This document shows, in pieces, positions 9,303-22,339 of a DNA stretch of 23,089 nt. A program made the translations under genes and the position numbers. The notes beneath the pieces were generated by a model. It made no database searches and had not been told where the DNA came from. It worked only from the letters and a program-made list of their open reading frames with translations. The stretch covers positions 1 through 23,089 of the IMG/VR virus record IMGVR_UViG_3300045996_001607; one strand, given 5' to 3'. The DNA comes from a virus. Each line of letters starts with the position of its first letter. Within the stretch, counting starts at the first letter, position 1.

Positions 9303-9710
9303 TTAGGGACGGTCGAAGTTCGGGACGATCGTCTCAGGCTTGAAGATGACGCGGTAGCGCGTCACTGAGACGTTCTGCGCCTTGCCCTGCTCGACGAAGT
9401 ACGAGACGTTGTCAGAGAGGCCGAGGAAGTGCTTCTTGAATCCCTGCGACGTCTTGCACGTGACCTCGAGCGCACCCTGCACGCCCGTGCTACCCGCCTC
9501 GATGGAGCAGAGGCCCTCGATGACGAGCAGGTACTTGTCGGTGATGCCGTTGAAGAACACGATCCTCCGCTCGACCTCGAACTGCTCCGCGGCCTTGCTG
9601 AGGTTCTTGGACGCGACGTCTGCGTCCGACTCGAAACAGCCCGCCGTCAGGAACGGGATCGGCAGCAGCATGGAGGCCACCACCAGGAGGTACGCGATGC
9701 GAGCCTTCAT
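9303..9710 (-). CDS. Phage lipoprotein (beta-sandwich type)
   Basis: From the ATG at 9710 the product has 135 residues. It has a signal peptide (MKARIAYLLVVASMLLPIPF) and a lipobox LTAGC with Cys25 as the lipidated residue, so it should be anchored outside the cytoplasmic membrane. The mature part is beta-rich, ending VTRYRVIFKPETIVPNFDRP, similar to proteins commonly labelled beta-sandwich lipoproteins in actinophages. The leader CGACCGAAAGGGGAACC precedes the start, and a near-consensus promoter (9741-9769) lies just upstream, so it can be expressed apart from the long operon. Surface lipoproteins of phages often cause superinfection exclusion; that role here is inference. Confidence 0.85.
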   Translation of the reverse strand: MKARIAYLLVVASMLLPIPFLTAGCFESDADVASKNLSKAAEQFEVERRIVFFNGITDKYLLVIEGLCSIEAGSTGVQGALEVTCKTSQGFKKHFLGLSDNVSYFVEQGKAQNVSVTRYRVIFKPETIVPNFDRP

Positions 9711-9740
9711 GGTTCCCCTTTCGGTCGATTGCTTGGCAGA

Positions 9741-9769
9741 ACCGTACCACGCCGGCACGGCCCTGTCAA
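9741..9769 (-). promoter_or_regulatory. Near-consensus sigma70 promoter for the lipoprotein gene
   Basis: Reading the minus strand, TTGACA (9769-9764), a 17-bp spacer and TACGGT (9746-9741) precede the lipoprotein start by about 30 bases. Unlike the main early promoters, the spacer lacks the TCCGACCC element. The -35 box lies directly outside the stop codon of the upstream TIM-barrel gene. Confidence 0.75.
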
Positions 9770-9772
9770 GTC

Positions 9773-10696
9773 CTACGCGCCGATCGAATCGAGCAGCGCG
9801 TCCACCTTCGGCTGAATCTCCGGGTACCGCGTCCGGTCAAGGGCGATCCGCTTGCAGTGCGGGATCCGGCCGTTCTCGGGGACAGCCTTGCCGATCGAGC
9901 GCAGGCCGTCCTCCCACTGCACCGCCGCCTCGATGATCTTCGCCCACGCAAGCTCGTTCAACTGCGCGACGGTGAGCGGGGCGACCTTCGCCGTGAGCGT
10001 GACGGCCTGGAGCGTGGTGATGCTCGTCCCCGACTGCTCGGCGGCCCACACCCAGACGCCGGAGACGTTGCCGGGGTTCGTCCGGAACCAGTCGACGTCG
10101 CGCCCGAGCGTCTTGTCGCCGAGGCCGATCACTGACGGGGCGGGGATGCCGTCCTGTCGGAGGTACGGCACGACGCGCTCCATCCCGTAGGTGAAGCCGT
10201 GGAAGTCGTAGCCCTCGGGAATGAACGTGACGCCGAGCTTTCGGCACGTCTCCGCGCCGCTGTTCAGCGTGGCGCCCGGGAAGCCGACCTCGGAGAACCC
10301 GAAGCTGACGATCGCGAGCGGGAACGTGATCCCGAGCTCGGCCTGCACGCCTCGGATGTACGCCTCGGTCATCGCGGCGACGTTCCAGCCGGCGAGCCAG
10401 TAGAGCTCCGTGTCGGCGATGTAGAACTCGAGCTTGTGCTTGCGCACGCGCGCGACGGTGATCGCGACGTCGGCGGCGACGTCCGGGCCATTGACGCCCC
10501 ATCCGCCGTGGCCGGCGAAGCCCATGGTGTTCTTGATCTGCGTGAAGGCGGCGTTGTTCGCCGCGGTAGAGGCGTTGTCGCCGCCGTGGACGTGAAGCTG
10601 GTGGGCGACGGCGGTCACACCGCCGCTCCTGAGAAGGTCCGGCGACGCGGCGCCCGCGTTCACAAGGAACGCTCCCTTGCGTTCAAACATCGTCAT
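9773..10696 (-). CDS. TIM-barrel, glycoside hydrolase-like protein of unknown function
   Basis: The product has 307 residues from ATG 10696, which follows GGAAGGAG and overlaps the DNA polymerase stop (ATGA). Eight beta strands can be followed in order: GAFLVNAG, AVAHQLHV, MGFAGHGGWG, LEFYIADTELYW, LAIVSFGFSEVG, VTFIPEGYDF, SVIGLGDKTL and VSGVWVWAAEQ. This is the pattern of a TIM barrel. The Asp/Glu pair at the end of strand 4 (ADTE) is placed as in many glycosidases, including GH25-type lysozymes. It ends with a helical region. No signal peptide is present. Possible roles are endolysin, virion glycosidase or an unrelated barrel enzyme; its place next to the polymerase gene does not decide. 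Family-level identity is not certain. Confidence 0.75.
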   Translation of the reverse strand: MTMFERKGAFLVNAGAASPDLLRSGGVTAVAHQLHVHGGDNASTAANNAAFTQIKNTMGFAGHGGWGVNGPDVAADVAITVARVRKHKLEFYIADTELYWLAGWNVAAMTEAYIRGVQAELGITFPLAIVSFGFSEVGFPGATLNSGAETCRKLGVTFIPEGYDFHGFTYGMERVVPYLRQDGIPAPSVIGLGDKTLGRDVDWFRTNPGNVSGVWVWAAEQSGTSITTLQAVTLTAKVAPLTVAQLNELAWAKIIEAAVQWEDGLRSIGKAVPENGRIPHCKRIALDRTRYPEIQPKVDALLDSIGA

Positions 10697-13053
10697 GCGC
10701 ACTCCTTCCACGTTCGTCCGGTTTCGAGCTCGACCTTGAAGGGTACCTCCACCGCAGGGCGCCCACGCTCATGCACGAACGCCGGCACGTCGACCTCCAT
10801 GATCTGCTGCATGCGTTCCTTGACCTCGTCGACGACCTCGTCCCGTGCCATCACGAGGATTGAGTCATGGACAGTGAGCAAGACCTGCGCGTACTCTTCG
10901 TTGAACTGCTGATCCATCATCGTCACGGCGATCGTCGTCATCTGTCCGGCGAGGCCTTGGATCGGCGTGTTCACTGCCTGCCGCTCGATGGAGCTCGCGT
11001 CCCACGGAAGCAGGAGCGGGAACCGCCGGCGGAACCCGAGCAGGTTCTCGACGAACTTCTGCTTACGGCCGATCGCCTTCTGCTTGCGGATCCAGGCGTA
11101 CAGGCCGGAGAACTTGCGCTCGAACGCGCGCTGGAACGTGCGGATCTGGTTCTCCGTCCACACCTGCTGACCGCTCTCAGCAAGATTCGTCATGACCTCG
11201 CTCTTCGCCAGACCGGCCGGGGACAGACCGTAGATCGAACCGAAGCTGACGGTCTTCGCGAGCACGCGCTCGGCCTTGGTCACCTGCTCCTTCGGCTTGC
11301 CCCAAAGTGCGAACGCGACCTCCTGGTGGACGTCGCCGTCCTCCTGGAACGTCTTCACGAGGGTCGGGTCGCCCGAGTAAGAACCAGCAGCGACCCGGAG
11401 CTCAAGCTGCGAGTAGTCCGCGGCAATCAACGTCCAGCCCTCGAGCGCGATGAAGCCTTCCATCACGTCGGGCGGGATGTTCTGGAGGTTCGGCTTGGCC
11501 ATCGACACGCGCCCCGTCTCGGTGCCGTGCAGACGAACCTCCCCGCGCACGCGGCCGTCGGGGTCGATCTTGTCGAGGATCCCCTTGACGTACGTCGCGC
11601 GCGTCTTCGCGTCCTTGCGCCACTCGAGCAGCGTGTCGATCATGCCGGCGACCTCGGGGCGCGCCTTGCGCACGTCGCGCGCGAGCGTCTTGAGGACATC
11701 CTTCTCGGTCGACGGGGCATCGGTCTTCCGCTTCCAGTCGTTCTTCGAGGCGATGATCGGCAGCCCCAGGTCCTCGTACAGGACCTCGCGGAGCTCGTTC
11801 GGCGAGCTCGGGCGGAACTCGTCTTTGCCGGTCAGCGCGAACGCCGTCTCGCGGAGCTCGACAAGCTGCGCGTCGATCGCGGTGTTGAGCTCATCCAGCT
11901 TGCGCTCGAAGAACGCGCGGTTCACCGGCACGCCGCGCCGCTCAATGTTCGAGAAGGCGATGGCCGCCGGCACGTACACGTCCTCGAGCAGTGGCCGCAG
12001 CTTCGGCGACTCGTCCTCGAGCTCGCGCAGCTTGAGCGGGTAGAGCATCGCCGTGTACGTCGTGTCGAGCGCCTGGTACACGCAGAGCTCTTCGAACATC
12101 TCCTGCTGCGTGGTCGGCAGCGTCTCGGGGTCGAGCCACTCCTTCAAGAACTTGCCCATGTCGATGCCGTAGTCACCGGCGTCGAAGTGCTTGCGCGCGA
12201 GCTCCTTGAGCCCGTGCGCCTTGAACTTGCCACCGCGCTCGTCGTGCAGGTACGACGCGAGCATGGTGTCGGACAGCTTGGAGTGGTGGCGGTTCAGGCC
12301 GGGGAACGCCTGCATCAGGTGCTTGTAGTCGAACTTGAGGTTGTGGAAGACGAGCACGCCGGGGTAGTTCTCGAGATACCAACGCGCGGCCTCGCTCGGC
12401 CCTTCGAAGATGATCGAGTGGCCAAGCTCGTCGGAAATTCCGATTGTCAGAATTTCCGACTCAAGTCCCAGGCCCGTCGTCTCGATGTCTCCGCCCAGGT
12501 GTGAGGCGTTCCACAACCCCGCGACCGAAGTGTTCTCGTCGACGAGCCACCGCTGCGCCTGCTCTGCCGTCGCGTCACGCGTCACACGGGTAACAACGGG
12601 AGCGGGAGTTGGGAGAGGCCGGTCGTTGTCGTGCAGCTTCGCCAGGTCGAACGAGAAGTCCCGGAACCAGTCGGCGTCCGAGAAGCACGTGCGCGGCGTG
12701 AACGTCGCAATCGCGTAGTGGCCTGCCTCGGTCATCATCCCGCGTCCGCGGATCTTCGTGATCGGCGGAGACTTCGGGAGGCCGAAGTATGCCGCGATGG
12801 GGAGTGCGCCCAGGAACAGGATCTTGTCGACGTAGGCCGCCTCCGCACGTAGGCGGTCAGTCTCCGCGTTCCAATCCTTGGCCTTGAGTTTCCCGAGCGC
12901 GTCCCCGTCGAGCTTCTCGTCGACGACGCTAGTGATCTGCACGTCCTGCGGCTGGAACCCAACGGCCTCGAGCGTGCGCATCAGCAGCGCGCCGGCAGTG
13001 CGCGTGCCGTACAGCGGGAGCGGGTAGTCGTGAATGACGAGCAGCTTGCTCAA
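10693..13053 (-). CDS. Family A DNA polymerase with 3'-5' exonuclease and uracil-DNA-glycosylase-like N-terminal domain
   Basis: The 786-residue protein is probably the replicative polymerase. Residues 1-145 resemble the fold of UDG families 4/5 (YGTRTAGALLMRTLEAVGF; KILFLGALPIAAYFGL; PITKIRGRG), but the usual GExPG and HPS motifs appear as HDYP and TPR, so glycosylase activity is doubtful. The proofreading domain has DIETTGL (Asp189, Glu191), HNLKFD (Asp242) and YQALD (Asp330). The polymerase domain has motif A DYSQLELR (Asp546), motif B RVLAKTVSFGSIYG (Lys600, Phe604) and motif C HDS (729-731) where HDE is usual. The start is a TTG at 13053 that overlaps the upstream stop, pointing to translational coupling; no strong Shine-Dalgarno is seen. 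The stop overlaps the TIM-barrel gene. Confidence 0.95.
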   Translation of the reverse strand: MSKLLVIHDYPLPLYGTRTAGALLMRTLEAVGFQPQDVQITSVVDEKLDGDALGKLKAKDWNAETDRLRAEAAYVDKILFLGALPIAAYFGLPKSPPITKIRGRGMMTEAGHYAIATFTPRTCFSDADWFRDFSFDLAKLHDNDRPLPTPAPVVTRVTRDATAEQAQRWLVDENTSVAGLWNASHLGGDIETTGLGLESEILTIGISDELGHSIIFEGPSEAARWYLENYPGVLVFHNLKFDYKHLMQAFPGLNRHHSKLSDTMLASYLHDERGGKFKAHGLKELARKHFDAGDYGIDMGKFLKEWLDPETLPTTQQEMFEELCVYQALDTTYTAMLYPLKLRELEDESPKLRPLLEDVYVPAAIAFSNIERRGVPVNRAFFERKLDELNTAIDAQLVELRETAFALTGKDEFRPSSPNELREVLYEDLGLPIIASKNDWKRKTDAPSTEKDVLKTLARDVRKARPEVAGMIDTLLEWRKDAKTRATYVKGILDKIDPDGRVRGEVRLHGTETGRVSMAKPNLQNIPPDVMEGFIALEGWTLIAADYSQLELRVAAGSYSGDPTLVKTFQEDGDVHQEVAFALWGKPKEQVTKAERVLAKTVSFGSIYGLSPAGLAKSEVMTNLAESGQQVWTENQIRTFQRAFERKFSGLYAWIRKQKAIGRKQKFVENLLGFRRRFPLLLPWDASSIERQAVNTPIQGLAGQMTTIAVTMMDQQFNEEYAQVLLTVHDSILVMARDEVVDEVKERMQQIMEVDVPAFVHERGRPAVEVPFKVELETGRTWKECA

Positions 13054-13232
13054 GGCGCCATCACGCTCGCTGCTCGGTCGACGTCCCGCTCGATTGCCTC
13101 GGCCCGGTCGCGTAGGCGCTTGGCCAACTTCAACTGTGCGTCAGCGGCGCTCATGTTCGACGATTCCTCACACACTGCCTGCGCGGTCCACGTCGTCTTG
13201 TTGGTTACTGTGATGTCTGCGAGCCTGCTCAT
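13050..13232 (-). CDS. Small hypothetical helical protein upstream of DNA polymerase
   Basis: The ATG at 13232 overlaps the previous stop (ATGA) and follows AGGGGAACC, giving 60 residues. The N-terminal half (MSRLADITVTNKTTWTAQAVCEESS) may form strands; the C-terminal half (AQLKLAKRLRDRAEAIERDVDRAA) is a charged amphipathic helix. It ends in an overlap with the TTG start of the polymerase, so the two are probably co-translated. No family is recognised. Confidence 0.65.
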   Translation of the reverse strand: MSRLADITVTNKTTWTAQAVCEESSNMSAADAQLKLAKRLRDRAEAIERDVDRAASVMAP

Positions 13233-13444
13233 AGCTTGGTTCCCCTCACTTCCTCTTCGGTTTCGATTGTCTCGACCTTGCCGTCGCACCAGAGACAGCG
13301 GTACTCCCCGTAACGCGGGCGCCACGAGGCGAGGATGATCGCGGTCGAGCGGAAGCCTTCGACGTGCCGCTTGGCTGGACACTCACGGTTGCGGCAGATC
13401 GACGTGAGTGCGATGTGCTCCACATCGGGCGCCTCGTCAGTCAC
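13229..13444 (-). CDS. Small zinc-finger-like protein
   Basis: The GTG at 13444 overlaps the upstream stop (GTGA), giving 71 residues. Two cysteine pairs, CRNREC near residue 17 and CLWC near residue 50, are spaced as in a small zinc ribbon, and the segment between them is beta-like (STAIILASWRPRYGEYR). The C-terminus is acidic. It could bind nucleic acid or protein; the family is not recognised. Confidence 0.7.
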   Translation of the reverse strand: MTDEAPDVEHIALTSICRNRECPAKRHVEGFRSTAIILASWRPRYGEYRCLWCDGKVETIETEEEVRGTKL

Positions 13445-13854
13445 TGTCGCCCTGCCGCCCGCATGAGCTCTTGGCGTGTGTCAGCGCGCTGCTGTTCCCG
13501 CAGACGCTCACGCACGTACTCGGCGCCGTTCAGGTTGAACATGATCGCGGCAGCGTGGTCTTCGTCGTCGTCGCCGCGAAGGTACTGGCGCGCGTGGCGC
13601 GCGAAGCCTTCGAGGAACCGCTCGAGGTCCTCTTCGGTGCAGGCGTTCATCCAGTTGCGCTTGCCCTTGCGCTCGGCCGCGTTGGTCAGGAGCTCGGCCC
13701 ATCGATCGAACATCGGTCCGTCCATCGCGAGCCGGTAGTCGACCTTGCCCTCAGTCGACCCGCGAATCATCCCAGACGGATGCTGGACGTCGTCGGGATG
13801 GACGCGACGCTCACCTACTTCACGTACCCAGGCCTCGTGGTCAGCAGCACCCAT
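13441..13854 (-). CDS. dATP/dGTP diphosphohydrolase N-terminal-domain-like protein (DUF5664 type)
   Basis: The product has 137 residues from ATG 13854 (AAAGGA upstream). It carries the pattern of the actinophage dATP/dGTP diphosphohydrolase N-terminal family: GMIRGSTEGKVDYRLAMDGPMF at residues 28-49, RNWMNA at 66-71, RFLEGFARHARQYLRGDDDEDHAAAIMFNLNGAEYVR at 79-114, with conserved Asp97, Glu98 and His100 probably binding metal. Members are linked to phage nucleotide pools, hydrolysing purine deoxynucleoside triphosphates; the biochemical role of this branch is less certain. It sits between the ssDNA-binding protein and polymerase genes, supporting a replication role. A large hairpin (13877-13912) precedes it. 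Confidence 0.8.
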   Translation of the reverse strand: MGAADHEAWVREVGERRVHPDDVQHPSGMIRGSTEGKVDYRLAMDGPMFDRWAELLTNAAERKGKRNWMNACTEEDLERFLEGFARHARQYLRGDDDEDHAAAIMFNLNGAEYVRERLREQQRADTRQELMRAAGRQ

Positions 13855-13876
13855 GCGGGATCCTTTCGTTCGGGGC

Positions 13877-13912
13877 GGGGGGAGCCGAGTGCTAGTGGGA
13901 TCGGCTCCCCCC
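13877..13912. terminator. Perfect 12-bp hairpin between two minus-strand genes
   Basis: GGGGGGAGCCGA (13877-13888) and its exact complement (13901-13912) enclose a 12-base loop. On the minus strand it falls between the ssDNA-binding gene and the diphosphohydrolase gene, and no T tract follows. It could act as a partial terminator, an RNA processing site or an mRNA stabiliser that lets the ssDNA-binding protein be made in excess. Confidence 0.55.
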
Positions 13913-13929
13913 TCGCTCTCTGGAGAGAG

Positions 13930-14424
13930 TTACTTGAACGCCTTGCCGCCGGCGCGGGTCTGCGCCTTCTCGCCCTCGGCGGTCTTGCGCGGTGACGTCT
14001 GCGGGTTGATCGCGATGAGCGTCTCGACGTCGTTCTTGTCGTTCCCCTGGTAGTCCTTGACCTTCACGACAGCCTTGGCAGGGAGTCCCACGAGCGCGGG
14101 CTTGACGACGATGCGCTCGTCACCGTCCTCTTCGACCTCGAACTGGATGTTCTCTTCGAAGATCCCGAGGTTCTCGAAGACCTCCTTCATGCGCCAGAGC
14201 GCCTTCGGATGGAACGAGCTCGTGAACCAGAGCAGGCGCCCCTCCGCGTCGGCTTCGACGCCGTCCGGCGTCTCGGTGACCTCGAGCGTGTAGTTGAGGT
14301 ACGGGTACTCGGACTTCTGCGAGTCGCGCAGCACCACCTTCGTGATGACGATGGGGTACTCGCCCGCCGGCAGGACCTCGAACCCTCCCTCGACGTCGCT
14401 GAAATCGACGTTGATGCTTGTCAT
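13930..14424 (-). CDS. DUF669-type single-stranded DNA-binding protein
   Basis: This 164-residue protein starts at ATG 14424, after GACCGAAAGGAAGG. Residues 1-115 fit the phage DUF669 family (FSDVEGGFEVLPAGEYPIVITKVVLRDS, then a QKSEYPYLNYTLEVTE strand pair), a group thought to act as ssDNA-binding proteins in replication and recombination. The C-terminal 45 residues are polar and probably flexible (TSPRKTAEGEKAQTRAGGKAFK) and end basic, not acidic as in cellular SSB. The AAA ATPase and Cas4-like exonuclease genes lie upstream in the same transcript, forming a recombination-replication set. A candidate promoter lies directly before it (14452-14471). Confidence 0.85.
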   Translation of the reverse strand: MTSINVDFSDVEGGFEVLPAGEYPIVITKVVLRDSQKSEYPYLNYTLEVTETPDGVEADAEGRLLWFTSSFHPKALWRMKEVFENLGIFEENIQFEVEEDGDERIVVKPALVGLPAKAVVKVKDYQGNDKNDVETLIAINPQTSPRKTAEGEKAQTRAGGKAFK

Positions 14425-14451
14425 GCGAACCCTTCCTTTCGGTCGTCGTAC

Positions 14452-14471
14452 AGGTTAGCGCCTGGGTCGGA
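14452..14471 (-). promoter_or_regulatory. Candidate promoter/operator copy before the ssDNA-binding gene
   Basis: On the minus strand TCCGACCCAGG (14471-14461) lies 3 bp upstream of TAACCT (14457-14452), the same geometry as in the divergent promoter at 19527-19588. The -35 position (GGCGTC) is poor, so expression may need an activator bound at the TCCGACCC element, or the site may only be a binding site. Confidence 0.4.
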
Positions 14472-14694
14472 CGGGACGCCCACGGCGCGGCGCGCGATCG
14501 AGCTCGTCGAACAGCCCGATGGCACGCTGCTGGTTGCGAAGCGCCTGGCCTGCGACACGCGCGGCGATCAGCATGAAGAGCGCTTGGACCGCGGTGAGCG
14601 TCCCGCCGATGATCGTGAGGATGATGCCGATCGTGTCGTACGACGTGGCTAGCCACGCGATCAGGCCGGCGATCAGAATGAGAACCGGGATCAT
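14455..14694 (-). CDS. Small membrane protein with two transmembrane segments
   Basis: The product has 79 residues from ATG 14694 (GAGGCAAGC upstream). Hydrophobic segments lie at about residues 3-17 (PVLILIAGLIAWLAT) and 22-47 (IGIILTIIGGTLTAVQALFMLIAARV). The C-terminus is strongly basic (APRRGRPVRPRR). The gene starts 9 bases after the ATPase gene. Size and topology are holin-like, but the position within the replication operon argues for another membrane role. No family is recognised. Confidence 0.7.
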   Translation of the reverse strand: MIPVLILIAGLIAWLATSYDTIGIILTIIGGTLTAVQALFMLIAARVAGQALRNQQRAIGLFDELDRAPRRGRPVRPRR

Positions 14695-14703
14695 GCTTGC
14701 CTC

Positions 14704-15405
14704 CTATTCGTCGAAGCCGAGCGCGTCGAAGATCGACGTGATCGTCGGGTTGTCGATTTCATCGGGCGGGGGTACGCCGTATGGCATACGCACCTTCGTC
14801 CGGATCTTCGCGTAGTTGTTCAGCAGCAGCGAGCGGTACGTCTCGCCCTCGTCGTTCGTCGCGAGCGCGAGGTAGCCAGAGAGCGAGAGCATCCCCGGAA
14901 TCTCGTACGCCATCTTGCCGCTGAACGACGGGACAGTGATGCGTCCCTCGCGCGGATCCGTCTCTTCCTTCGAGTGCGCGGTGAAGAACACGTGCATCGG
15001 CAGGTCGCGGAACTCGCGAACGAACCGGCGCATCTGGATCATCGCCTTGCCGTAGTCCTGGATCTGCAACGCGTCCTTGTCCTTGCGCCGGCCAGCCTCG
15101 TCGTCGAGGATCGTGAGCAGCGCGCCGATGTGCGTCTCCGCAGCGGAGTCGACGCCCGTGCTCTTGAAGCCCTCGTCGTTCGCCTGGAGGCGCGCGAACT
15201 CCGTGTTGTAGTCCTGCCAGTTGCGCACGTGCGCGACGACCCAATCCGTTCCCTCCCCGGGCATGCCGGCGAGCGAGTCGGTTCCGCCCTCGAAGTCGAG
15301 GATGAGGATCGGCGCCGTGCGCTCGTCCTGCGCCGCGGTCCCGATAAGCACGGTCTTGCCGTGCCCCGGCGGACCGAAGTACAGGTGATTCGCGTAGCGT
15401 TTCAT
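14704..15405 (-). CDS. Sak4-like RecA-fold ATPase (phage nucleotide-binding protein)
   Basis: This 233-residue protein has a Walker A motif GPPGHGKT at residues 11-18, a strand ending LILDFEGG that suits Walker B or the following switch, and a later TGVDSAAET segment. The arrangement matches the AAA_24/Sak4-like ATPases found in phage recombination modules, which bind ssDNA and promote annealing or strand exchange together with an exonuclease and an SSB. The neighbours fit: the Cas4-like exonuclease gene upstream overlaps by one base (TGATG) and a DUF669 protein lies downstream. Function is inferred from family and context. Confidence 0.87.
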   Translation of the reverse strand: MKRYANHLYFGPPGHGKTVLIGTAAQDERTAPILILDFEGGTDSLAGMPGEGTDWVVAHVRNWQDYNTEFARLQANDEGFKSTGVDSAAETHIGALLTILDDEAGRRKDKDALQIQDYGKAMIQMRRFVREFRDLPMHVFFTAHSKEETDPREGRITVPSFSGKMAYEIPGMLSLSGYLALATNDEGETYRSLLLNNYAKIRTKVRMPYGVPPPDEIDNPTITSIFDALGFDE

Positions 15406-16487
15406 CAGACTCCTTCCGGGATAACGAACCGATCGGGCTTGCGCTCGTAACCGTACTCAATGAGGAACTCGAGGTCCTCCTGCATTTCCATACCGTTGCA
15501 GATGGACAGGACGGGACACTTGCGGCAATTCCACTGCGACGGGTTCGGGTAGCGCGCGCCCTCGTGCTGCGTCGCGTCGCGCATGTCGATGTACTCGTTG
15601 TAGAGGCGGCGCTCGAACGACTCGAGCTCTGCCGGCGAGCGGCGCACGGCCTCGCGGCCGAAGAACTGATCCCATCCCTTGTCCTGGAGGAAGCTGAGGT
15701 ACTCGGCGTAGTCACCGGCGGCCAGACCTTCGGGGTCTTCGCGCTTCACCGTCGTGAGGAACAGGTCGTACGTCGTGCGCGCGTTACGCGCCTGCGAGAA
15801 CATCTTCCCCGGCTTGTTGGACTTGAGCCTCTGCGGGGGGTGCGGCGGCTCCTTGCTCAGGCGGTTGTAGATCGCCCCTTCGGCGTACTCGCCAGTCAGG
15901 CGCCAGTAGCCGTAGCAGTAGGACGTCAACTGGTCGTCGACGTCGAGCGCGTTCGAGTCGTGCGGCGATGCCGCGCTCTTGTGGTCGACGATCCAGACGC
16001 CGCCCTTCTTCGTGACGACCATGTCGATCTGGAACGAGAAGAGCGGGTTCCCCGGCAATGGCTCGCGCGTGTCGGGGTCGAGGATCGGCACGTAGCCACG
16101 TTCTTCAATCGCAAGGTCGAGGACCTCGTCGAAGAACGGATGTTGGCGGTCGAACGTGTCGTAGTACGTAAGCATCGTGATGCCCTTGAGCCGATGGTCC
16201 TCCCACTCCTGTTCGATGCCCTCCTGGTAAAGCGGGCCGTAGTCACGCGCGAACTGATCGTCAGCCTCACCCCACGCTTCGCCGAACCAGTTGAGTGCGG
16301 TCTGGAGGTTACGGTCGTCGCCGTAGTAGCCCTCGAGCCCCTTGTGGATCGTGTTGCCGAACTCGAGCTCCCACGCGATCGCGTTACGGCGCTGCAACTT
16401 CTCCTGCGTGGTCAGCCACCACTTGCGCCGGCAGGTGCGGAACTCGCGCTTCTCGGTTGCGGTCGTGACGAACCGAACCTCACTCAT
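15405..16487 (-). CDS. Cas4/RecB-family PD-(D/E)XK exonuclease with iron-sulfur cysteines
   Basis: The 360-residue product shows the RecB nuclease pattern: His48 in GNTIHKGLEGYY, Asp155 in FQIDMVV, the Asp168-His169-Lys170 motif (IVDHKSA) and a QLTSYCYGY motif near residue 186. Cys19 (CRRKW) and Cys321, Cys324 and Cys330 (CRKCPVLSIC) are placed as the four ligands of a 4Fe-4S cluster, as in Cas4 and AddB. It probably resects DNA ends for recombination with the adjacent ATPase and ssDNA-binding protein. It is longer than typical stand-alone Cas4, with an insertion before the last cysteines. There is no CRISPR system in the window, so it is a phage replication/recombination enzyme. Confidence 0.9.
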   Translation of the reverse strand: MSEVRFVTTATEKREFRTCRRKWWLTTQEKLQRRNAIAWELEFGNTIHKGLEGYYGDDRNLQTALNWFGEAWGEADDQFARDYGPLYQEGIEQEWEDHRLKGITMLTYYDTFDRQHPFFDEVLDLAIEERGYVPILDPDTREPLPGNPLFSFQIDMVVTKKGGVWIVDHKSAASPHDSNALDVDDQLTSYCYGYWRLTGEYAEGAIYNRLSKEPPHPPQRLKSNKPGKMFSQARNARTTYDLFLTTVKREDPEGLAAGDYAEYLSFLQDKGWDQFFGREAVRRSPAELESFERRLYNEYIDMRDATQHEGARYPNPSQWNCRKCPVLSICNGMEMQEDLEFLIEYGYERKPDRFVIPEGV

Positions 16488-16704
16488 GCAGAGCCGTCCG
16501 CTGGTAGGTCAGCTTACGCGGGAGTGTGAGGTCGAAGCGCACGCCGGCGTTTCGCGGAAAGATCCACGCAGGCTTTCCGTCGTGGCCGTAGCCGTCGGCG
16601 ATCGCCATCTCGAGTGCCTCTTGTTCGTCGTCCGCGCTGTACTCGGACATGCTCCAGTCCGTCTCGGCCTCATTCGTATCCTGGGTGAAGACGATGTAGA
16701 TCAC
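16480..16704 (-). CDS. Small hypothetical protein
   Basis: The GTG at 16704 overlaps the previous stop (GTGA) and is preceded by GGGGGA, giving 74 residues starting MIYIVFTQDTNEAETDWSMSEY. It looks like a small alpha/beta protein: a strand, an acidic helix (ADDEQEALEMAIADGYG), then two strands. It overlaps the Cas4-like gene by 8 bases. No family is recognised. Confidence 0.65.
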   Translation of the reverse strand: MIYIVFTQDTNEAETDWSMSEYSADDEQEALEMAIADGYGHDGKPAWIFPRNAGVRFDLTLPRKLTYQRTALHE

Positions 16705-16928
16705 GTGTCCCCCAGGCGGCGCGAAAGCTCGCGCGCATCTTCGATCAGGTCCGTGGGCACGCTGCATCGCTCCATGGAAGGGGTCGACGCGAACGCCGCG
16801 ATGTCGCGAACGTTCCGGGCGAGCTCGCCGTACGTCGGGTACTCACCGCGCGGCTCGACCTTGCGCAGAGACTCCGAGCTCGGAGCCTTCAACGCCTCAG
16901 TCAACTCTTCGACCTTTTCGCTCTCCAT
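16701..16928 (-). CDS. Small hypothetical protein behind an operator-like promoter
   Basis: The product has 75 residues from ATG 16928, with a strong GGGAGGAAC site upstream. It is hydrophilic and largely helical (KVEELTEALKA; LIEDARELSRRLGDT), with one cysteine and no membrane segment. Directly upstream is a TACAAT box with a TCCGACCC element, so transcription may restart here after the peptidase gene. No family is recognised. Confidence 0.65.
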   Translation of the reverse strand: MESEKVEELTEALKAPSSESLRKVEPRGEYPTYGELARNVRDIAAFASTPSMERCSVPTDLIEDARELSRRLGDT

Positions 16929-16957
16929 CGTTCCTCCCTGGTGGTCGGTGTCCTCGT

Positions 16958-16986
16958 ATTGTAGCGGCCGGGTCGGACGTTACTTG
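16958..16986 (-). promoter_or_regulatory. Candidate promoter with TCCGACCC operator element
   Basis: On the minus strand TACAAT (16963-16958) is a very good -10 box. TCCGACCCGGC (16977-16967) lies exactly 3 bp upstream, as in the main divergent promoters. The -35 position (CAAGTA) is weak. The element overlaps the 3' end of the peptidase gene. Confidence 0.5.
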
Positions 16987-17603
16987 AGCAGCGCCTTGAG
17001 CACCGCGCGCTCGTCGCCCGAGACAGCCACCGTCGACACGACTTCAACCGGATCCCCCACGTAGGCGTTGAGGTCGATCGCCACGCGGATCGCGGCGTCC
17101 GCCGCCTGCACGGCCTTGGACAGCGTCAGGTCGGCGATCGTCCCGACGCTCTCCATGAGTGCGCCGGCAGCGACCTCCCCTCCCGAGCCTTCCGTGGCCC
17201 AGGGGAGTCGGTCTTCGGCAACTTGGAAGTCGGGGAGGATCGAGAAGAGCCGGTGCCGGACAGCGAAGATCAACGCCGAGTCGGGCATTTCAAGGATCGA
17301 GTCCTCGTGGAAGATCGCGAGTGTGCCCGATACGTCGAGGATGTGGATCATCTGGGGCACGAGCTCCTTCACGGCCCATCGGTACTCGTCCTGGCCGATG
17401 TATGGGCCGTCGAAATGCTCGAGCCCAAACTCGAGCGCCTGTCCGACGCGGGGGGAACCGCAGCCGGCCATCGCGACGGTGTCGCTGAACTGGATGATCT
17501 TGGAGTCGATGCGCTCGCGCTTACTTCCGCCGTATCCTGTGGCCTGTGAATCCGCTGCGAGGACGACACCGTTGCGGTACTTCACTCCGACGATCGCGGT
17601 CAC
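16980..17603 (-). CDS. HslV / 20S proteasome beta-like Ntn-hydrolase peptidase
   Basis: This 207-residue protein starts at GTG 17603 (GGGAG upstream) with M-TAIVGVKYRNGVVLAADSQAT. Removing Met exposes Thr as residue 1, the catalytic nucleophile of this family, with no propeptide, as in HslV. Asp is then residue 17, and Lys is residue 34 (canonical 33). The GCGS segment and the later EGSGGEVAAGAL motif match the proteasome Ser129 loop, and AAIRVAIDLNAYVG matches the last helix region, although the usual Asp166 and Ser169 appear as Asn and Val, closer to HslV. It should form a ring-shaped compartment that degrades proteins fed by an ATPase; no HslU- or Mpa-like ATPase is visible here, so a host unfoldase or an ATP-independent role is possible. 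Confidence 0.88.
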   Translation of the reverse strand: MTAIVGVKYRNGVVLAADSQATGYGGSKRERIDSKIIQFSDTVAMAGCGSPRVGQALEFGLEHFDGPYIGQDEYRWAVKELVPQMIHILDVSGTLAIFHEDSILEMPDSALIFAVRHRLFSILPDFQVAEDRLPWATEGSGGEVAAGALMESVGTIADLTLSKAVQAADAAIRVAIDLNAYVGDPVEVVSTVAVSGDERAVLKALLK

Positions 17604-17619
17604 TTCACTCCCTTCATCG

Positions 17620-17746
17620 CTCCACTCACTTGACGGCCGAGCCCGGATTACCAGCCCGTACCGACTCCCGACAGTCGACCAAAACCCCCGGGGCAGGAGA
17701 CACGCACGAGTGCGCGCTACTCGACCCGGCCGTCAAGTCAGTGGAG
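17620..17746. repeat. 20-bp inverted repeat in a noncoding gap
   Basis: The gap 17604-17759 holds arms at 17620-17639 and 17727-17746 that pair at 19 of 20 positions, separated by 87 bases. Both arms contain ACTTGACGGCCG. Inside are smaller stems (CGACT/AGTCG near 17662-17678). No convincing -10 box lies at the right distance from either TTGACG, so it is probably not a simple promoter pair. It may be a structured leader of the peptidase mRNA, a protein binding site or an origin-type element. Confidence 0.6.
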
Positions 17747-17759
17747 GGGACTGCGGTCG

Positions 17760-18233
17760 TCAGACCACAGCCCCCTCACGATGCGGCTGGCAGCGCCACG
17801 TGGTAGAGCCCTCGGGCTTCTCGTCCTCGATGAGTGACAGGACACGGCCGAGCTCGACCAGGCCGTTGACCGGGCCGTGGAGCTCCTGCGGGCAGTCCTT
17901 CTTGTCGCACTGCACGACGACGGACAGCTTGTCGTTGCGGTACGCGAACGTCAGCCCGTCCTTTTCTCCGCCGGCGCACTCGCGCGGGTTCTTCCGATCG
18001 AACCACTCAGGCGAGACGTTGTCGAGCTCGCGGTCGAAGGCACGCCGGAACCGGGTTGCCAGGCCCTCGGCAGCGCCGGCCGCGATGAACTGGTGCTCAG
18101 CGCCCCATGCGGCGGCGGCAAGGACAGTCAGGTCGGCGTCCGGGTCGACGTCGAGCGTGTCGTCGAGCACCTGCTTGATGTGCGGCTCGAGCGGCACCCC
18201 GAGCATCGGCTTGATCTTGGCCCTCGCGGTCAT
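17760..18233 (-). CDS. Hypothetical protein
   Basis: The 157-residue product starts at ATG 18233 (GACGAAAGGGGA upstream) and overlaps the preceding small gene (ATGA). The N-terminus has a Pro-rich start and a helix (PHIKQVLDDTLDVDPDADLTVLAAAAWGAEHQFIAAG), then a mixed region with three cysteines (CAGGEK, CDKKDC) and one more near the C-terminus (WRCQPH), which might bind a metal. A small hairpin spans the stop codon (17751-17770). No family is recognised; the neighbouring genes suggest an early-expressed accessory protein. Confidence 0.7.
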   Translation of the reverse strand: MTARAKIKPMLGVPLEPHIKQVLDDTLDVDPDADLTVLAAAAWGAEHQFIAAGAAEGLATRFRRAFDRELDNVSPEWFDRKNPRECAGGEKDGLTFAYRNDKLSVVVQCDKKDCPQELHGPVNGLVELGRVLSLIEDEKPEGSTTWRCQPHREGAVV

Positions 18234-18379
18234 TGCTCGTGTTCCCCTTTCGTCTCAGTAGATCGTGTGCGGCCCAGGATAGCATCCCAATCGGACCCGG
18301 TCAGTTTCTTGAGCGGGAGCGGGGATGGCCCAGGTACACCGAAGATGTCTTCCCACGTTGCGCCCGGAAGCTCAGTCAA
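18230..18379 (-). CDS. 49-residue protein with twin W-x-x-I-x-G motifs
   Basis: A TTG start at 18379 overlaps the stop of the endonuclease gene. The product, TELPGATWEDIFGVPGPSPLPLKKLTGSDWDAILGRTRS and a charged tail, has two similar motifs, TWEDIFG and DWDAILG, 24 residues apart on either side of a Pro-rich linker. The stop overlaps the next ATG (ATGA), which supports a real gene in an otherwise overlapping operon. The start and reality are moderately certain; no family is recognised. Confidence 0.5.
   Translation of the reverse strand: MTELPGATWEDIFGVPGPSPLPLKKLTGSDWDAILGRTRSTETKGEHEQ
18276..18304 (-). promoter_or_regulatory. Candidate internal promoter before the 157-residue protein
   Basis: On the minus strand CTGACC (18304-18299), a 17-bp spacer and TATCCT (18281-18276) resemble a sigma70 promoter. 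The spacer contains TCCGATTGGGA at the same position where other promoters carry TCCGACCC. It lies inside the 49-residue gene. Confidence 0.4.
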
Positions 18380-18689
18380 TTGGCTCGAGCTCGAGCTCGC
18401 CGGCTTCGTACGCACGTCGCGCCTCCGGGCCATGGGTCAACGCGTTCGTGAGGTAGGCGATGGCGTTCGTGAGCCACTCGATCGTGACGAAGAAAGCGAG
18501 CGTGCGATTGCAGCGATAGCAGAGAAGGCCTCGCGGCATGCCGGTGACGTGGTCGTGGTCGCGATGGAGTCGGCGCGTCTTGCCAGGGCGTCCGCAAATG
18601 CCGCAACGCTCCGATCCACCATTGATGTGAACGTAGACCTCATACGGCAGCTTGAGGGCTTCGCTGTGTCTTGGTCGGCGCTTCGCCAT
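18372..18689 (-). CDS. Endonuclease VII-like HNH nuclease
   Basis: The product has 105 residues from ATG 18689 (an ATG at 18701 would add four). It has the phage endonuclease VII signature: CGICGRPG, LHRDHDHVTGMPRGLLCYRCN, then a helical tail (TIEWLTNAIAYL). The four cysteines bind zinc, and the DHDH part supplies the metal-dependent active site. Endonuclease VII resolves Holliday junctions and branched DNA before packaging; other family members are free-standing nicking enzymes. It overlaps the upstream gene by 50 bases. A short basic N-terminus (MAKRRPRH) is normal for the family. Confidence 0.87.
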   Translation of the reverse strand: MAKRRPRHSEALKLPYEVYVHINGGSERCGICGRPGKTRRLHRDHDHVTGMPRGLLCYRCNRTLAFFVTIEWLTNAIAYLTNALTHGPEARRAYEAGELELEPID

Positions 18690-18924
18690 GGTCGCCAGCA
18701 TAGACGACGATCGCCTTCTCTTCACGGCGCACCGTGTAGAGGACGTCGTCGGCGTCGATGTCGACAACCTGGACGCGCGACTTGGCCTCGCGCTCGACTA
18801 GGTGGAGGGCCTCGAGCGTCGCGGCCGTCTCCCCCGGGTACTTCGCCGGGCGCGTCTCCCCGTCGTAGCGCAGGCGGAAGCGCGTTCCGTCTCCGTCTGA
18901 CCGGCGGTGACGACGGATCTTCAT
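18640..18924 (-). CDS. Small hypothetical basic protein
   Basis: The ATG at 18924 overlaps the stop of the RlpA-like gene (ATGA), giving 94 residues. The N-terminus is basic (MKIRRHRRSDGDGTRFRLRY) and the rest alternates strands and helices (TLEALHLVEREAKSRVQVVDIDADDVLYTVRREEKAIVVYAG). No known family is recognised. It overlaps the endonuclease start by 50 bases, which is unusual here and leaves some doubt about one of the two boundaries. Confidence 0.65.
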   Translation of the reverse strand: MKIRRHRRSDGDGTRFRLRYDGETRPAKYPGETAATLEALHLVEREAKSRVQVVDIDADDVLYTVRREEKAIVVYAGDHGEAPTKTQRSPQAAV

Positions 18925-19286
18925 CGGACACGCGTCCAGTACACGCGGCAGACGCCGCAACGAGTCACGCCGGCGACGCGCGCCGCCGCGTACGTGAGGT
19001 CGAAGTCACGCCCACGCACGAACGGGCCGCGGTCGATCACGCGCACGAGCACGCAGCGCGTACGGCAGACACGGACGATCGCACCGAGCGGAAGCGTCTT
19101 GTGCGCGACGCCCCACGTGCGCGGGGTGAGCACGGTGCCGTCGGCTGTGCGGTTGCCGTACAGCCCTGGGCCGTACCACGAGCTCACGGCCTGCGCCTCG
19201 GAGCGGCCGTCGGCTTCCTCCGTGTACCCGATGAGCAGCAGCGCACAGAGGATGCCGACGAGGATTCCTACGGCGACGAGCCTCAT
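18921..19286 (-). CDS. Membrane-anchored RlpA-like double-psi beta-barrel protein
   Basis: This 121-residue product from ATG 19286 begins with a hydrophobic segment (RLVAVGILVGILCALLLIG), either a signal anchor or a signal peptide. Residues 36-102 match RlpA-like barrels: SSWYGPGLYGNRTADG, GVAHKTLPLGAIVRV (His62) and VIDRGPFVRGRDFDLTYAAA (Asp85). RlpA proteins bind or cleave peptidoglycan glycan strands; the Glu often found after TANG is Thr here, so cleavage is uncertain. Cysteines in CRTRC and CGVC could form disulphides outside the membrane. It overlaps both neighbouring genes by ATGA. Being near the start of the early operon argues against a role only in final lysis. Confidence 0.83.
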   Translation of the reverse strand: MRLVAVGILVGILCALLLIGYTEEADGRSEAQAVSSWYGPGLYGNRTADGTVLTPRTWGVAHKTLPLGAIVRVCRTRCVLVRVIDRGPFVRGRDFDLTYAAARVAGVTRCGVCRVYWTRVR

Positions 19287-19495
19287 GCCTTGCGCTCCGC
19301 CGCCGCCGCCGTTATCTGCGCCTCGAGCTTCGCCGTTGCGCTGGCGAAGTCGAAGTCGGAGATGGACGTGAACGTGCCAAGCTGGTACATCTGCGCCATG
19401 AGCGTCATGGCGTCTGCGATCCGGCGCGCGGAGTCGACGATGCCGAGCAGCGCGAGCAGGAAGAAGATGCTGAGTACGATTGCGAGGAAGAGCAC
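19283..19495 (-). CDS. Small single-pass membrane protein, first gene of the minus-strand operon
   Basis: The GTG at 19495 follows GACCGAAAGGAGCACC, giving 70 residues. The N-terminus is a transmembrane helix (LFLAIVLSIFFLLALLGIV). The remainder is helical and polar (DSARRIADAMTLMAQMYQ; ASATAKLEAQITAAAAERKA) and is likely cytoplasmic. A near-consensus promoter lies about 35 bases upstream. It is probably made very early; no family is recognised. Confidence 0.7.
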   Translation of the reverse strand: MLFLAIVLSIFFLLALLGIVDSARRIADAMTLMAQMYQLGTFTSISDFDFASATAKLEAQITAAAAERKA

Positions 19496-19526
19496 GGTGC
19501 TCCTTTCGGTCGGGTTGTCCCGGGGA

Positions 19527-19555
19527 ACAGTACACGTCGGGTCGGACGGTGTCAA
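19527..19555 (-). promoter_or_regulatory. Main minus-strand early promoter
   Basis: TTGACA (19555-19550), a 17-bp spacer and TACTGT (19532-19527) form a near-consensus sigma70 promoter in front of the GTG at 19495. The spacer carries TCCGACCCGAC (19546-19536), 3 bp upstream of the -10 box. It should drive the long operon down to about 9.8 kb. Confidence 0.85.
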
Positions 19556-19579
19556 GGCCTTGACCGAATCCGACCCGAC
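19536..19579. promoter_or_regulatory. Perfectly symmetric operator between divergent promoters
   Basis: A central 14-bp palindrome GTCAAGGCCTTGAC (19551-19564), which contains both -35 boxes, is flanked at 4 bp on each side by inverted copies of TCCGACCCGAC (19536-19546 on the minus strand, 19569-19579 on the plus strand). The two halves are equidistant from the centre at 19557/19558. A dimeric or tetrameric regulator bound here could control both early operons together. The regulator gene is not recognised in the window. Confidence 0.75.
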
Positions 19580-19588
19580 TGCTATCGT
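19560..19588 (+). promoter_or_regulatory. Main plus-strand early promoter
   Basis: TTGACC (19560-19565), a 17-bp spacer and TATCGT (19583-19588) lie upstream of ATG 19616. The spacer holds TCCGACCCGAC, again 3 bp before the -10 box, mirroring the minus-strand promoter. Confidence 0.82.
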
Positions 19589-19615: not shown

Positions 19616-19741
19616 ATGGCACGGCAGAAGAAGAAGGCGGAGGCTCGGCTCGAGCAGCGCCAGCGCCAGTACGACTCGATCCCCGTCGACAAGCGCCGCG
19701 GGACGAAGCGCCCCGGCTCGACCAACAACCACCAGCGATGA
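19616..19741 (+). CDS. 41-residue basic protein, first gene of the plus-strand early operon
   Basis: The ATG at 19616 follows AAGGAGG at ideal spacing and is only about 27 bases after a -10 box. The product (MARQKKKAEARLEQRQRQYD, then SIPVDKRRGTKRPGSTNNHQR) is highly basic and probably helical at the N-terminus, then unstructured. Its stop overlaps the next start (ATGA). Such small basic early products can bind nucleic acids or host enzymes, but no family is recognised. Confidence 0.7.
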   Translation: MARQKKKAEARLEQRQRQYDSIPVDKRRGTKRPGSTNNHQR

Positions 19742-20154: not shown

Positions 20155-20414
20155 GCAAGCTGCTCGCCTACCCCTGCATCGGCGGACCGCTCGCCGGCCA
20201 GTACGCGACGTCGACGGATTTCATCGGAGGCTCCCGCTTCATTGGCGGAGTCGACGACCCCACTGAGGGCATGTACGGCCACCTTGCCGGGGAGTACACG
20301 CGGTACGAATGGCCTGCTCTAGCTGGCCCGTACAACGAAGGGGACTTCCCGCCGAAGGTGGTCTACATCCACCAGTCCATGCTCAAGCCGACCAAGAAGG
20401 CCGGCGACAGGTGA
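20151..20414 (+). CDS. Hypothetical protein
   Basis: The GTG at 20151 overlaps the previous stop (GTGA), giving 87 residues: MSKLLAYPCIGGPLAGQYATS, then a segment rich in Gly, Tyr and Asp, and a basic C-terminus (QSMLKPTKKAGDR). The opening pattern (PCIGGPLAGQ) is typical of small actinophage proteins of unknown function. Its stop overlaps the primase-helicase start. Confidence 0.7.
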   Translation: MSKLLAYPCIGGPLAGQYATSTDFIGGSRFIGGVDDPTEGMYGHLAGEYTRYEWPALAGPYNEGDFPPKVVYIHQSMLKPTKKAGDR

Positions 20415-22339
20415 AGCTCGACGACATTCTCAGTCGTCTTGAGGGCGTCGAAGAACGAGGGGAGGGATGGGTCGCGCGCTGTCCGGCGCACGACGACGAC
20501 AACCCCTCGCTCTCGATCGGCCGCGGACGGAACGGCGCCGTGCTGCTCAACTGCTTCGGCGGCTGCACGTTCGAAGAGGTTATGGACGCACTCGAAGAAC
20601 GCGAAAGCGGTGTCACAAGCGTTGGCACCCCAGACAACCCCCCAATGACCGTCGACTTCCGCGTCGTTGGTAAGGCGGAAGACGGACTGCGCTGGTGGGC
20701 CGCGAAGACGAAAGTGCCCGTCGAGGTCTGGGAGGCGCTCGGGACAGAGGCGTACGGCACAGGCGTCAAGTTCCTCTTCGAGGGGTTCAACGCTTTCAAG
20801 TACCGGAAGCCTCCGAGGCCCGACGGGTCGAAGGATGTCGGGTGGGCCGGTGACGTTGCGCCGCCATTCTGGCCCGTCCCCCCTGTCGAGCCGGAGGGAA
20901 CGGAAGCGTGGGTTGTGGAGGGAGAAAGCGACTGTGGCACGATGCGCTACGCCGGCGCGCAATGCTTCACAACGACGAAGGGATCGAAGGGCGTTCCGAC
21001 GGTCGCGATGTTCGAAGAGCTCGCGACGCGCGGCATCACGACGATCACGATCGTCGGGGACGGAGACAGCGCGGGCGAAGAGTACATGCGGCGGGCCGCA
21101 GTCAACGCGATCGCCGCCGGCATGCACGTCAAGACTGTCGAACTCCGCCGGCTGTTCGACCCGTTTAGCGGGATGGTCGACCTCAACGACGCATGGAAGG
21201 CGTGCCTCGAAGAGGCCGGTGGAGAACGGGCCAGCGCGCAACGCCTCTTCCTCGAGCGGCTCGAGTCCGTCACCGAGTCGTACGTCACCGCTCTCCGCGT
21301 GCTCGACGGAGAGACGGCGCTCGACTGGTCCGACCAGGAGGTCAACTGGCTCGTGCCCGACCTGATCGCTCCCGGTGACAAGGGCATCATCATCGCCGCG
21401 CAGAAGAGCTACAAGACGTGGATCTGCTTGGACCTCGTGCGCTCGATGCTCATGCTCCAGCCGTTCATGCGGCGCCCGGAATGGGTGCCGAAGCGGCCGT
21501 CGCGCATCGGGTTCGTCGAAGAAGAAGGATCGAAGAACGCCTTCGGCAAGCGCATGTCGACGTTGCAGATCCCGCGCGAGGTCTGGCGCGATCGGTTCCG
21601 GCTGATCCACCGCAGCGGGTTTCGCTTCACCGAGCCGGCCGCTGTCGCCGAGCTCATCCAGATCGTGCGCACGCACGAGCTCGACGTCCTGATCCTCGAC
21701 CCACTCCAGCGAATGATCCCCGGCCTCGACGAGAACAGCGCGAGCGAAATGGCGGTCGTGTGGGATGCCGTCGCCGACCTTCACCGCGCGCATCCTGATC
21801 TAGTCGTCCTCCTGGTTCATCACGCAGGGAAGGGGAAAGACGCAGGTTGGGACGCGGCTCGCGGCTCGAGCCGCCATGCCGGCGAGGTCGACTTCGGGAT
21901 CTTCGTCCAGCGCGAGAAGGAGCGCGGCCACTTGAAGGTGCGCGTCGATGGTCGCGACATCCCCGAGTACCTTGGCACCGGCGAATACTTCACGACACGG
22001 GTCGAGATTGACATGGACGACGACCCGACCAAACGCCGCTTCGTGCTCGACGCCACCGAGCTCGAGGTCACGGTCGTCGAGAAGCCGAAGGACGACGCAC
22101 CGAAGCCGCCGTCCCTGGCGGAAGCGACCGCCGCGCGCAAGCGGGCGGGGGTCTACGAGGCGGTGGCGGGAGGCCTCGAGACGGTGGCCGAGCTCGTGAT
22201 GCAGACGGGCTTGACACGGACGACGGTTCAGCGTATCCTCGGGGAGCTCGAGAAGGATGGTGTCGTCACGAAACTGCCGGCGTCACCCGGGATGGCAACC
22301 CGATACCAGACCACACTGACCGAAAGGAGTACCACATGA
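20411..22339 (+). CDS. Primase-helicase: zinc finger, TOPRIM, RepA-like ATPase and winged-helix C-terminus
   Basis: The 642-residue product starts at GTG 20411, overlapping the upstream stop. A primase zinc finger (Cys24, His27, Cys48, Cys52) opens the protein. A TOPRIM domain follows with WVVEGESD (Glu170) and TIVGDGDSAG (Asp217, Asp219), then DLNDAW, the usual TOPRIM end. An AAA_25/RepA-type RecA fold covers about residues 310-540, with P-loop AAQKSYKT (Lys335) and Walker B LDVLILDPLQRM. The C-terminus (about 590-635, LVMQTGLTRTTVQRILGELEKDGVV) is a winged helix-turn-helix, perhaps for origin binding. It should unwind DNA and make primers for the polymerase encoded on the other strand. A promoter for the next gene lies inside its 3' end. 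Confidence 0.93.
   Translation: MKLDDILSRLEGVEERGEGWVARCPAHDDDNPSLSIGRGRNGAVLLNCFGGCTFEEVMDALEERESGVTSVGTPDNPPMTVDFRVVGKAEDGLRWWAAKTKVPVEVWEALGTEAYGTGVKFLFEGFNAFKYRKPPRPDGSKDVGWAGDVAPPFWPVPPVEPEGTEAWVVEGESDCGTMRYAGAQCFTTTKGSKGVPTVAMFEELATRGITTITIVGDGDSAGEEYMRRAAVNAIAAGMHVKTVELRRLFDPFSGMVDLNDAWKACLEEAGGERASAQRLFLERLESVTESYVTALRVLDGETALDWSDQEVNWLVPDLIAPGDKGIIIAAQKSYKTWICLDLVRSMLMLQPFMRRPEWVPKRPSRIGFVEEEGSKNAFGKRMSTLQIPREVWRDRFRLIHRSGFRFTEPAAVAELIQIVRTHELDVLILDPLQRMIPGLDENSASEMAVVWDAVADLHRAHPDLVVLLVHHAGKGKDAGWDAARGSSRHAGEVDFGIFVQREKERGHLKVRVDGRDIPEYLGTGEYFTTRVEIDMDDDPTKRRFVLDATELEVTVVEKPKDDAPKPPSLAEATAARKRAGVYEAVAGGLETVAELVMQTGLTRTTVQRILGELEKDGVVTKLPASPGMATRYQTTLTERSTT
22211..22239 (+). promoter_or_regulatory. 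Near-consensus promoter inside the primase-helicase gene
   Basis: TTGACA (22211-22216), a 17-bp spacer and TATCCT (22234-22239) lie about 97 bases before ATG 22336. No TCCGACCC element is present in the spacer. It could give extra transcription of the phosphoribosyltransferase-like gene and those following. Confidence 0.6.

Follow-up and report, generated by a model that had tools for sequence, protein, structure and literature searches.

What signal governs two replication and recombination operons that diverge from a nearly symmetric 44-bp element? The window, meaning the whole 23,089-base stretch analyzed here (IMG/VR record IMGVR_UViG_3300045996_001607; G+C 65%), begins with plus-strand genes up to ~9.2 kb that have a tail-type look (one was compared, and its match is distant). 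A minus-strand block at 9303–19498 encodes, by homology, RDF-like, DNA polymerase I, DUF669 ssDNA-binding-like and Sak4-like proteins, together with a Cas4-like exonuclease, an HslV-like peptidase, endonuclease VII and DPBB proteins. The plus-strand block from 19616 encodes a 41-aa protein, a primase-helicase and a phosphoribosyltransferase-like protein (by homology). The 117 bp between the GTG at 19498 and the ATG at 19616 hold the element at 19536–19579 (Table 1). A preliminary description had read it as a palindromic operator that puts both early operons under a shared signal. The sequence supports a divergent promoter pair with a common sequence signal between replication/recombination operons (by homology Pol I, Sak4, Cas4-like and DUF669 on minus; primase-helicase on plus).

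Single-protein scans of IMG/VR found no relatives of the window by protein. The 80 RDF-related loci compared (the best 80 of 445 confirmed) have little else in common with it, and the exact box module described below is absent from all loci searched in the series L004–L093. Gordonia phages of Emalynvirus and Ponsvirus, whose operons are arranged similarly, were set aside because their divergent gap measures just 17–31 bp. The RDF-family protein of the window (phrog_478; 9303–9710, minus) has a lipobox-like start and 62–67% identity to mycobacteriophage proteins, and stands much nearer to known isolates than do the remaining proteins of the window that were compared. A candidate intergenic RNA (17604–17760, minus) lies before the HslV-like gene; its 20-bp closing stem is 95% complementary and encloses an 87-nt interior, its folding energy is −86 kcal/mol against −65.3 in shuffles (z −4.9), and it has no Rfam match at gathering score. 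A GC-rich hairpin, GGGGGGAGCCGA...TCGGCTCCCCCC (13860–13930, minus), stands directly before the gene starting at 13854 and is possibly a terminator or attenuator. The sequence GACCGAAAGG is identical ahead of four start codons, at 9717, 14435 and 19502 (minus) and 22318 (plus), and is read as a leader with a ribosome-binding site.

Table 1. Promoter elements and adjoining genes of the window
Feature	Position	Strand	Remarks
-10 hexamer TACTGT, minus promoter	19527..19532	-	29 nt to GTG start 19498
Spacer box TCCGACCCGAC (top strand GTCGGGTCGGA), minus promoter	19536..19546	-	TCCGACCC to -10, 6 bp
-35 hexamer TTGACA, minus promoter	19550..19555	-	sequence
Central palindrome GTCAAGGCCTTGAC, 14 bp, made by both -35 regions	19551..19564		includes TCAAGGCCTTGA 19552-19563
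-35 hexamer TTGACC, plus promoter	19560..19565	+	sequence
Spacer box TCCGACCCGAC, plus promoter	19569..19579	+	sequence
-10 hexamer TATCGT, plus promoter	19583..19588	+	28 nt to ATG 19616
Third box promoter, TCCGACCC-GGCCGC-TACAAT (box 16970)	16958..16977	-	no -35; 30 nt before ATG 16928
Fourth box promoter, TCCGACCC-AGGCGC-TAACCT (box 14464)	14452..14471	-	no -35; 28 nt before ATG 14424
Weaker fifth site, TCCGATTG-GGATGC-TATCCT (box 18291)	18276..18295	-	CTGACC -35; 43 nt before ATG 18233
Control promoter TTGACA-17-TACGGT, RDF-like gene	9741..9769	-	good -35 and -10, no box
Minus operon gene 1, small membrane-like protein	19283..19498	-	no family match
Plus operon gene 1, basic protein, 41 aa	19616..19741	+	no family match
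Plus operon primase-helicase	20411..22339	+	homology

Two divergent promoters in a near-symmetric element

Two sigma-A-type promoters point away from each other in the element, one on the minus strand (TTGACA-17-TACTGT) and one on the plus strand (TTGACC-17-TATCGT). Their spacers carry an exact 11-bp inverted repeat, and the two −35 hexamers are 4 bp apart. The sequence and coordinates previously given for the two promoters, the 17-bp spacers, the palindrome containing the −35s and the inverted copies of TCCGACCCGAC are right. The promoters had also been called near-consensus, which suits the TTGACA and TTGACC hexamers and the agreement of both −10s with TANNNT, but not the match to TATAAT, which is 3/6 for TACTGT and 4/6 for TATCGT. 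TANNNT is the actinobacterial form of the −10. The full sigma-A series (TTGACN, 17 bp, TANNNT, then a start codon) is present at both divergent promoters and at the RDF promoter.

The symmetry had been described as exact and too great for chance. The 11-bp inverted repeat is indeed exact, but over the 44-mer, the best even palindrome of the window, 18/22 pairs are symmetric; the four mismatched pairs fall in the N4 that separates each −35 from its box. Among 300 windows shuffled by an order-3 Markov model, four reach 18 symmetric pairs, so the symmetry is only mildly unusual and is not decisive alone. That frequency is what speaks for a chance palindrome without function, an explanation that we find scarcely credible: the element sits in a divergent gap and includes two complete promoters, all other copies of its box lie at promoters, and the box statistics below contradict it.

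As the −35s are 4 bp apart and the predicted starts ~75 bp apart, two polymerases would overlap. Given their footprints, two holoenzymes at 19536–19579 should not fit simultaneously, so that firing should alternate. Joint firing may be no likelier than competition between the promoters. A single regulator of the two operons, as first suggested, would be acceptable in the form of two oriented sites, not of one palindromic operator.

A promoter box with constant spacing to the −10

The box TCCGACCC occurs four times in the window, and since 18/100 shuffles have as many, the count itself is unremarkable. Its placement is not: in all four copies exactly 6 bp separate the box from a downstream TANNNT, a hexamer present at 0.15% of positions (binomial P 5.6e-12; 6e-7 corrected for 110,775 octamer/offset tests). 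In an unsupervised test of each octamer with at least three copies against TANNNT, applied to 91 sequences of which only those of at least 8 kb were scored (1,448,244 bases), the window ranked first among the scored sequences (corrected 6e-7). As a positive control, several other loci gave TTGACA at 15–17 bp, the ordinary −35. The shorter TCCGA behaves alike: 5/60 window copies are followed by N9-TANNNT, where 0.09 were expected, and all five precede starts. Over TCCGA-to-TANNNT spacings of 0 to 20, five cases fall at 9, one at 20 and zero elsewhere.

These sites stand before genes. The −10s of the four full promoters end 28–30 nt ahead of a start codon on the same strand, and all five −10s lie 28–43 nt upstream of one. 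Start codons were assigned in this analysis, and regions up to 80 nt upstream of them make up 5.5% of both strands. Comparing box copies with gene starts, a check proposed in the preliminary description, therefore came out as anticipated, with TCCGACCC tracking the starts in the window. The gene behind the fourth promoter encodes the DUF669 ssDNA-binding-like protein; the weaker fifth site sits within another gene.

None of the sites at 16958, 14452 and 18276 has an inverted partner. Two of the four full sites thus lack both a −35 and a partner, which marks the box as an oriented promoter element. As it recurs singly, in one orientation and at a fixed distance from other −10s, the inverted repeat at 19536–19579 is a consequence of two back-to-back modules. 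A palindromic operator special to that position is not supported, given these single copies, which had gone unmentioned. The RDF promoter lacks the box, which is thus not a feature of all promoters here. Judged from sequence, at least four and probably five promoters in the replication/recombination region appear to use the module (TTGAC)-N4-TCCGACCC-N6-TANNNT.

The box in other viruses

The full inverted pair is found in no IMG/VR record, yet the box module is present at many sites of other phages, so that a check of conservation gives a divided answer. A scan of IMG/VR for GTCCGACCCNNNNGCTANNNT returned 61 stretches; most have a single match, and many of those with low G+C have the appearance of chance hits. 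Three contigs stood out. Over whole records, TCCGACCC stands at N6-TANNNT in 20/21 copies in G001 (IMGVR_UViG_3300032218_004264), 12/15 in G002 (3300032218_004357) and 4/4 in G003 (3300034198_030938), and in 2/4, 2/5 and 2/2 in G004 (Microbacterium phage Paschalis), G005 and G006; the records other than the window were picked for having a match, so at least one copy in each is there by selection and the remainder is not. G003 and G001 are largely one and the same virus. G001, with a ribonucleotide reductase, a helicase and a major head protein, and G002, with a tail sheath, have no ORF in common (at least 45 aa, E<=1e-5), and the window has one distant protein in common with G002 and one with G006. 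The module is common to unrelated phages, and the same kind of box in unrelated viruses is probably a shared regulatory switch.

The 32 distinct sites of G001 and G002 give the consensus nnGAc-N2-TGTCCGACCCC-N2-TGC-TAnnnT-A. The box reads TGTCCGACCC in 32/32. Matches of the −35 to TTGACA average 3.0 and 2.75 of 6 in G001 and G002 (background 1.35 and 1.37), with the G kept in 26/32 and the A in 29/32; such weak −35s resemble, by analogy, those of activator-dependent promoters. The extended −10 TGn, kept in 28/32, can replace a −35 and is the point in favor of an explanation without a dedicated factor, in which the spacer sequence is favored by sigma-A polymerase itself or promoter cassettes have been copied between phages. 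We regard this as very unlikely, as 8–10 box bases are invariant and GTCCGACCCNNNNGCTANNNT is scarce in hosts, where 396 genomes gave 10 matches against 3 for the control. Among host genomes with a single box, some copies are credible promoters of unrelated genes, and no regulon was seen.

Several G001/G002 box promoters (L186, L189–L192) have a start codon 6–7 nt past the −10, suggesting leaderless mRNAs. A G001 protein of 313 aa has HTH matches. Paschalis gp82, annotated as a sigma factor, has no relative in the other records. The single match at L003, with no convincing common proteins and no second box, was taken as chance. Two other repeated sequences do not resemble the box: Lauer carries GTATGGGT as a tandem repeat, and in Eula TTGTTGTT coincides with gene starts in reverse reading. 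The 31 loci of a genome-contig scan are mostly extended hairpins. In L053 (IMGVR_UViG_3300012347_000097) the palindrome TGTATGATAATCATACA is repeated at several sites, some of them ahead of genes by eye.

Orthologous promoters of Microbacterium phages show which positions are kept. Upstream of the Erf gene in seven aligned phages, TGTCnGAnCC and ACGCTAACCT are invariant while much upstream sequence varies, and upstream of the RecE gene in four phages TGTCnG and ACGCTAACCT are kept; the aligned phages are the more divergent among the matches listed (56 matching records each), and four are in both alignments. The RecE promoter reads TGTCGGTG-CCCGACGC-TAACCT, that is TGTCGGTG-N8-TAACCT, in 3/4 phages, so that TGTCCGAC and TGTCGGTG are exchanged at an orthologous site with identical spacing. 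Between the window promoter at 14452 (GTCCGACCCAGGCGCTAACCT) and that of RecE in Paschalis (GTCCGACCCGAACGCTAACCT), 3/21 positions differ. A third Paschalis site, L197:14734, reads TGTCGGTA-N8-TAGTCT before gp56 and is near the PafBC motif.

Actinobacterial phage promoters are poorly defined, and a box in a fixed place gives a testable handle on the timing of early and replication genes. Its occurrence spans at least three groups of phages that are unrelated, and it would allow promoters to be called from sequence.

Activation or repression

Because the spacing is fixed and the −35s are often poor, we infer a protein at −26 to −19 that touches RNA polymerase. We put about even confidence in the proposal that 19536–19579 is two back-to-back copies of one oriented module served by a −26 activator with sigma-A polymerase. 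The putative regulator would sit on the box at about −26 to −19 and act with sigma-A RNA polymerase by sigma adaptation, in a PafBC-like manner. Promoters whose −35 is poor could thereby fire. In the divergent pair both −35s are good, and the regulator's effect there would be to modulate two promoters that overlap each other; by binding in both spacers it could set the balance between them. Against the need for an activator, these two window promoters, with excellent −35s, may require none.

The box might instead be placed for the opposite effect, with a phage repressor filling the spacer and shutting all these promoters in the lysogen, as with Cluster K ESAS and Cluster A operators. In favor of this are the RDF-like gene, a hint of a temperate lifestyle; the apparent strength of the divergent promoters without help; and the seven intergenic SigA-like promoter copies with an inverted repeat in Adephagia (PMC11373665). 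Repression is possible but on the unlikely side, since the 6-bp spacing, fixed in 4/4, 20/21 and 12/15 copies, and the mostly weak −35s fit activation better, although duplication of a repressor site together with its promoter would likewise fix the spacing. No repressor gene or HTH regulator was recognized among the scanned proteins of the window, which is a fragment, and no repressor gene or integrase beside the operator in these 23 kb, as in a phage genetic switch. Activation is favored over repression from these sequence features.

Comparison with known systems

Spacer activators and phage-wide promoter motifs are already known kinds of element; in the literature searched, this box and its spread across unrelated actinophages did not appear, and a literal search for the box gave no title on phage promoters among the matches listed. 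The operators and stoperators of Cluster A phages (L5) are likewise short asymmetric sites in phage promoters, and the minus −35 region contains TGTCAAG, which we take to be the stoperator core; the repeated element here, however, is TCCGACCC. GTCAAGG is over-represented in the window (10 copies, reached by 0/100 shuffles), but L5-type stoperators were rejected because the other copies lie inside coding regions and have no wider common motif. The window does not show the many 13-bp asymmetric TCAAG-core sites outside coding sequence that mark Cluster A.

Cluster K phages (Adephagia, TM4) also have phage-wide SigA-like promoters with a conserved extra motif before a subset of genes (PMC11373665, PMC3203893). 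ESAS is an imperfect 15–17 bp inverted repeat with a variable spacer, whereas the box here is asymmetric, 8–10 bp long and at a fixed distance; paired inverted repeats of ~15–17 bp at each promoter are absent, as 16958, 14452 and 18276 have no inverted partner. SARP (AfsR) boxes resemble it in being an activator site in the spacer, the 3' repeat lying 8 bp from the −10 (PMC10936776), but are direct repeats 11 or 22 bp apart, of which none was seen in the window by eye. At the SiwR promoter of Mycobacterium smegmatis a GGA triplet is conserved in the −26 region (PMC10693628), and TCC is its complement; that system differs in involving a single operon and a 19-bp imperfect palindrome.

PafBC promoters provide another likeness. 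By published accounts, the LexA/RecA-independent (PafBC, RecA-NDp) DNA-damage motif is tTGTCRgtg - 8 nt - TannnT (PMC5656591), PafBC lodges between the DNA of the promoter and domain 4 of sigma-A, PafB sitting on a −26 motif between −35 and −10 (PMC11804915), SiwR is a second WYL activator that requires the −26 region (PMC10693628), and AfsR has a mode similar to that of PafBC (PMC10936776). The phage box is similar in length, lies between −35 and −10 at an equal distance from TANNNT, and most related phage sites have a weak −35; TGTCCGAC-N8-TAnnnT has the spacing of the motif as published there. The position alone (TGTC to TA, 16 bp) is found at 5/5 window sites and at the spaced sites counted in the other phages. 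The window box differs in being TCCGACCC, not TGTCRGTG, and in serving phage replication and other genes. The core TGTCRG(TG) is present at 0/5 window sites, which have CGTC (three), GGTC (one) and AATC (one) in place of TGTC, while TGTCCG is present in 32/32 G001/G002 sites.

Host PafBC itself, or a close WYL relative, might bind the box, and phage genes would then be switched on by DNA damage or by the ssDNA that phage replication yields. The spacing, equal to that of the published motif, and the TGTCCGAC/TGTCGGTG exchange at an orthologous phage promoter point this way. We nevertheless think it quite unlikely, given 0/5 window sites with TGTC and the host counts: across 100 actinobacterial genomes, TTGTCAGTG-N8-TANNNT is enriched (29 matches against 4 in the reversed control; 14/29 in one genome), whereas the phage CCGAC variant TTGTCCGAC-N8-TANNNT is not (5 against 16; the set may exclude hosts), so its use by host PafBC in those genomes is improbable. 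No WYL domain (PF13280, E<=1) was found in 7/7 box-bearing records, some of them fragments, including the window, and 9/14 control genomes were positive. The literature search brought up no example of a phage using the PafBC motif.

A broader picture, tentative and on the whole unlikely, would join these likenesses. The box would be transferable among unrelated actinobacterial phages (tail-sheath, siphovirus-like and Microbacterium), derived from the PafBC −26 element or convergent with it, and a sigma-adapting activator, host or viral, would drive early and replication genes, perhaps in response to ssDNA made by the phage's own replication. Here two modules would be locked back to back, with one activator governing two mutually exclusive promoters. 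If the element is truly of PafBC type, these phages would be plugged into the DNA-damage activator of their hosts.
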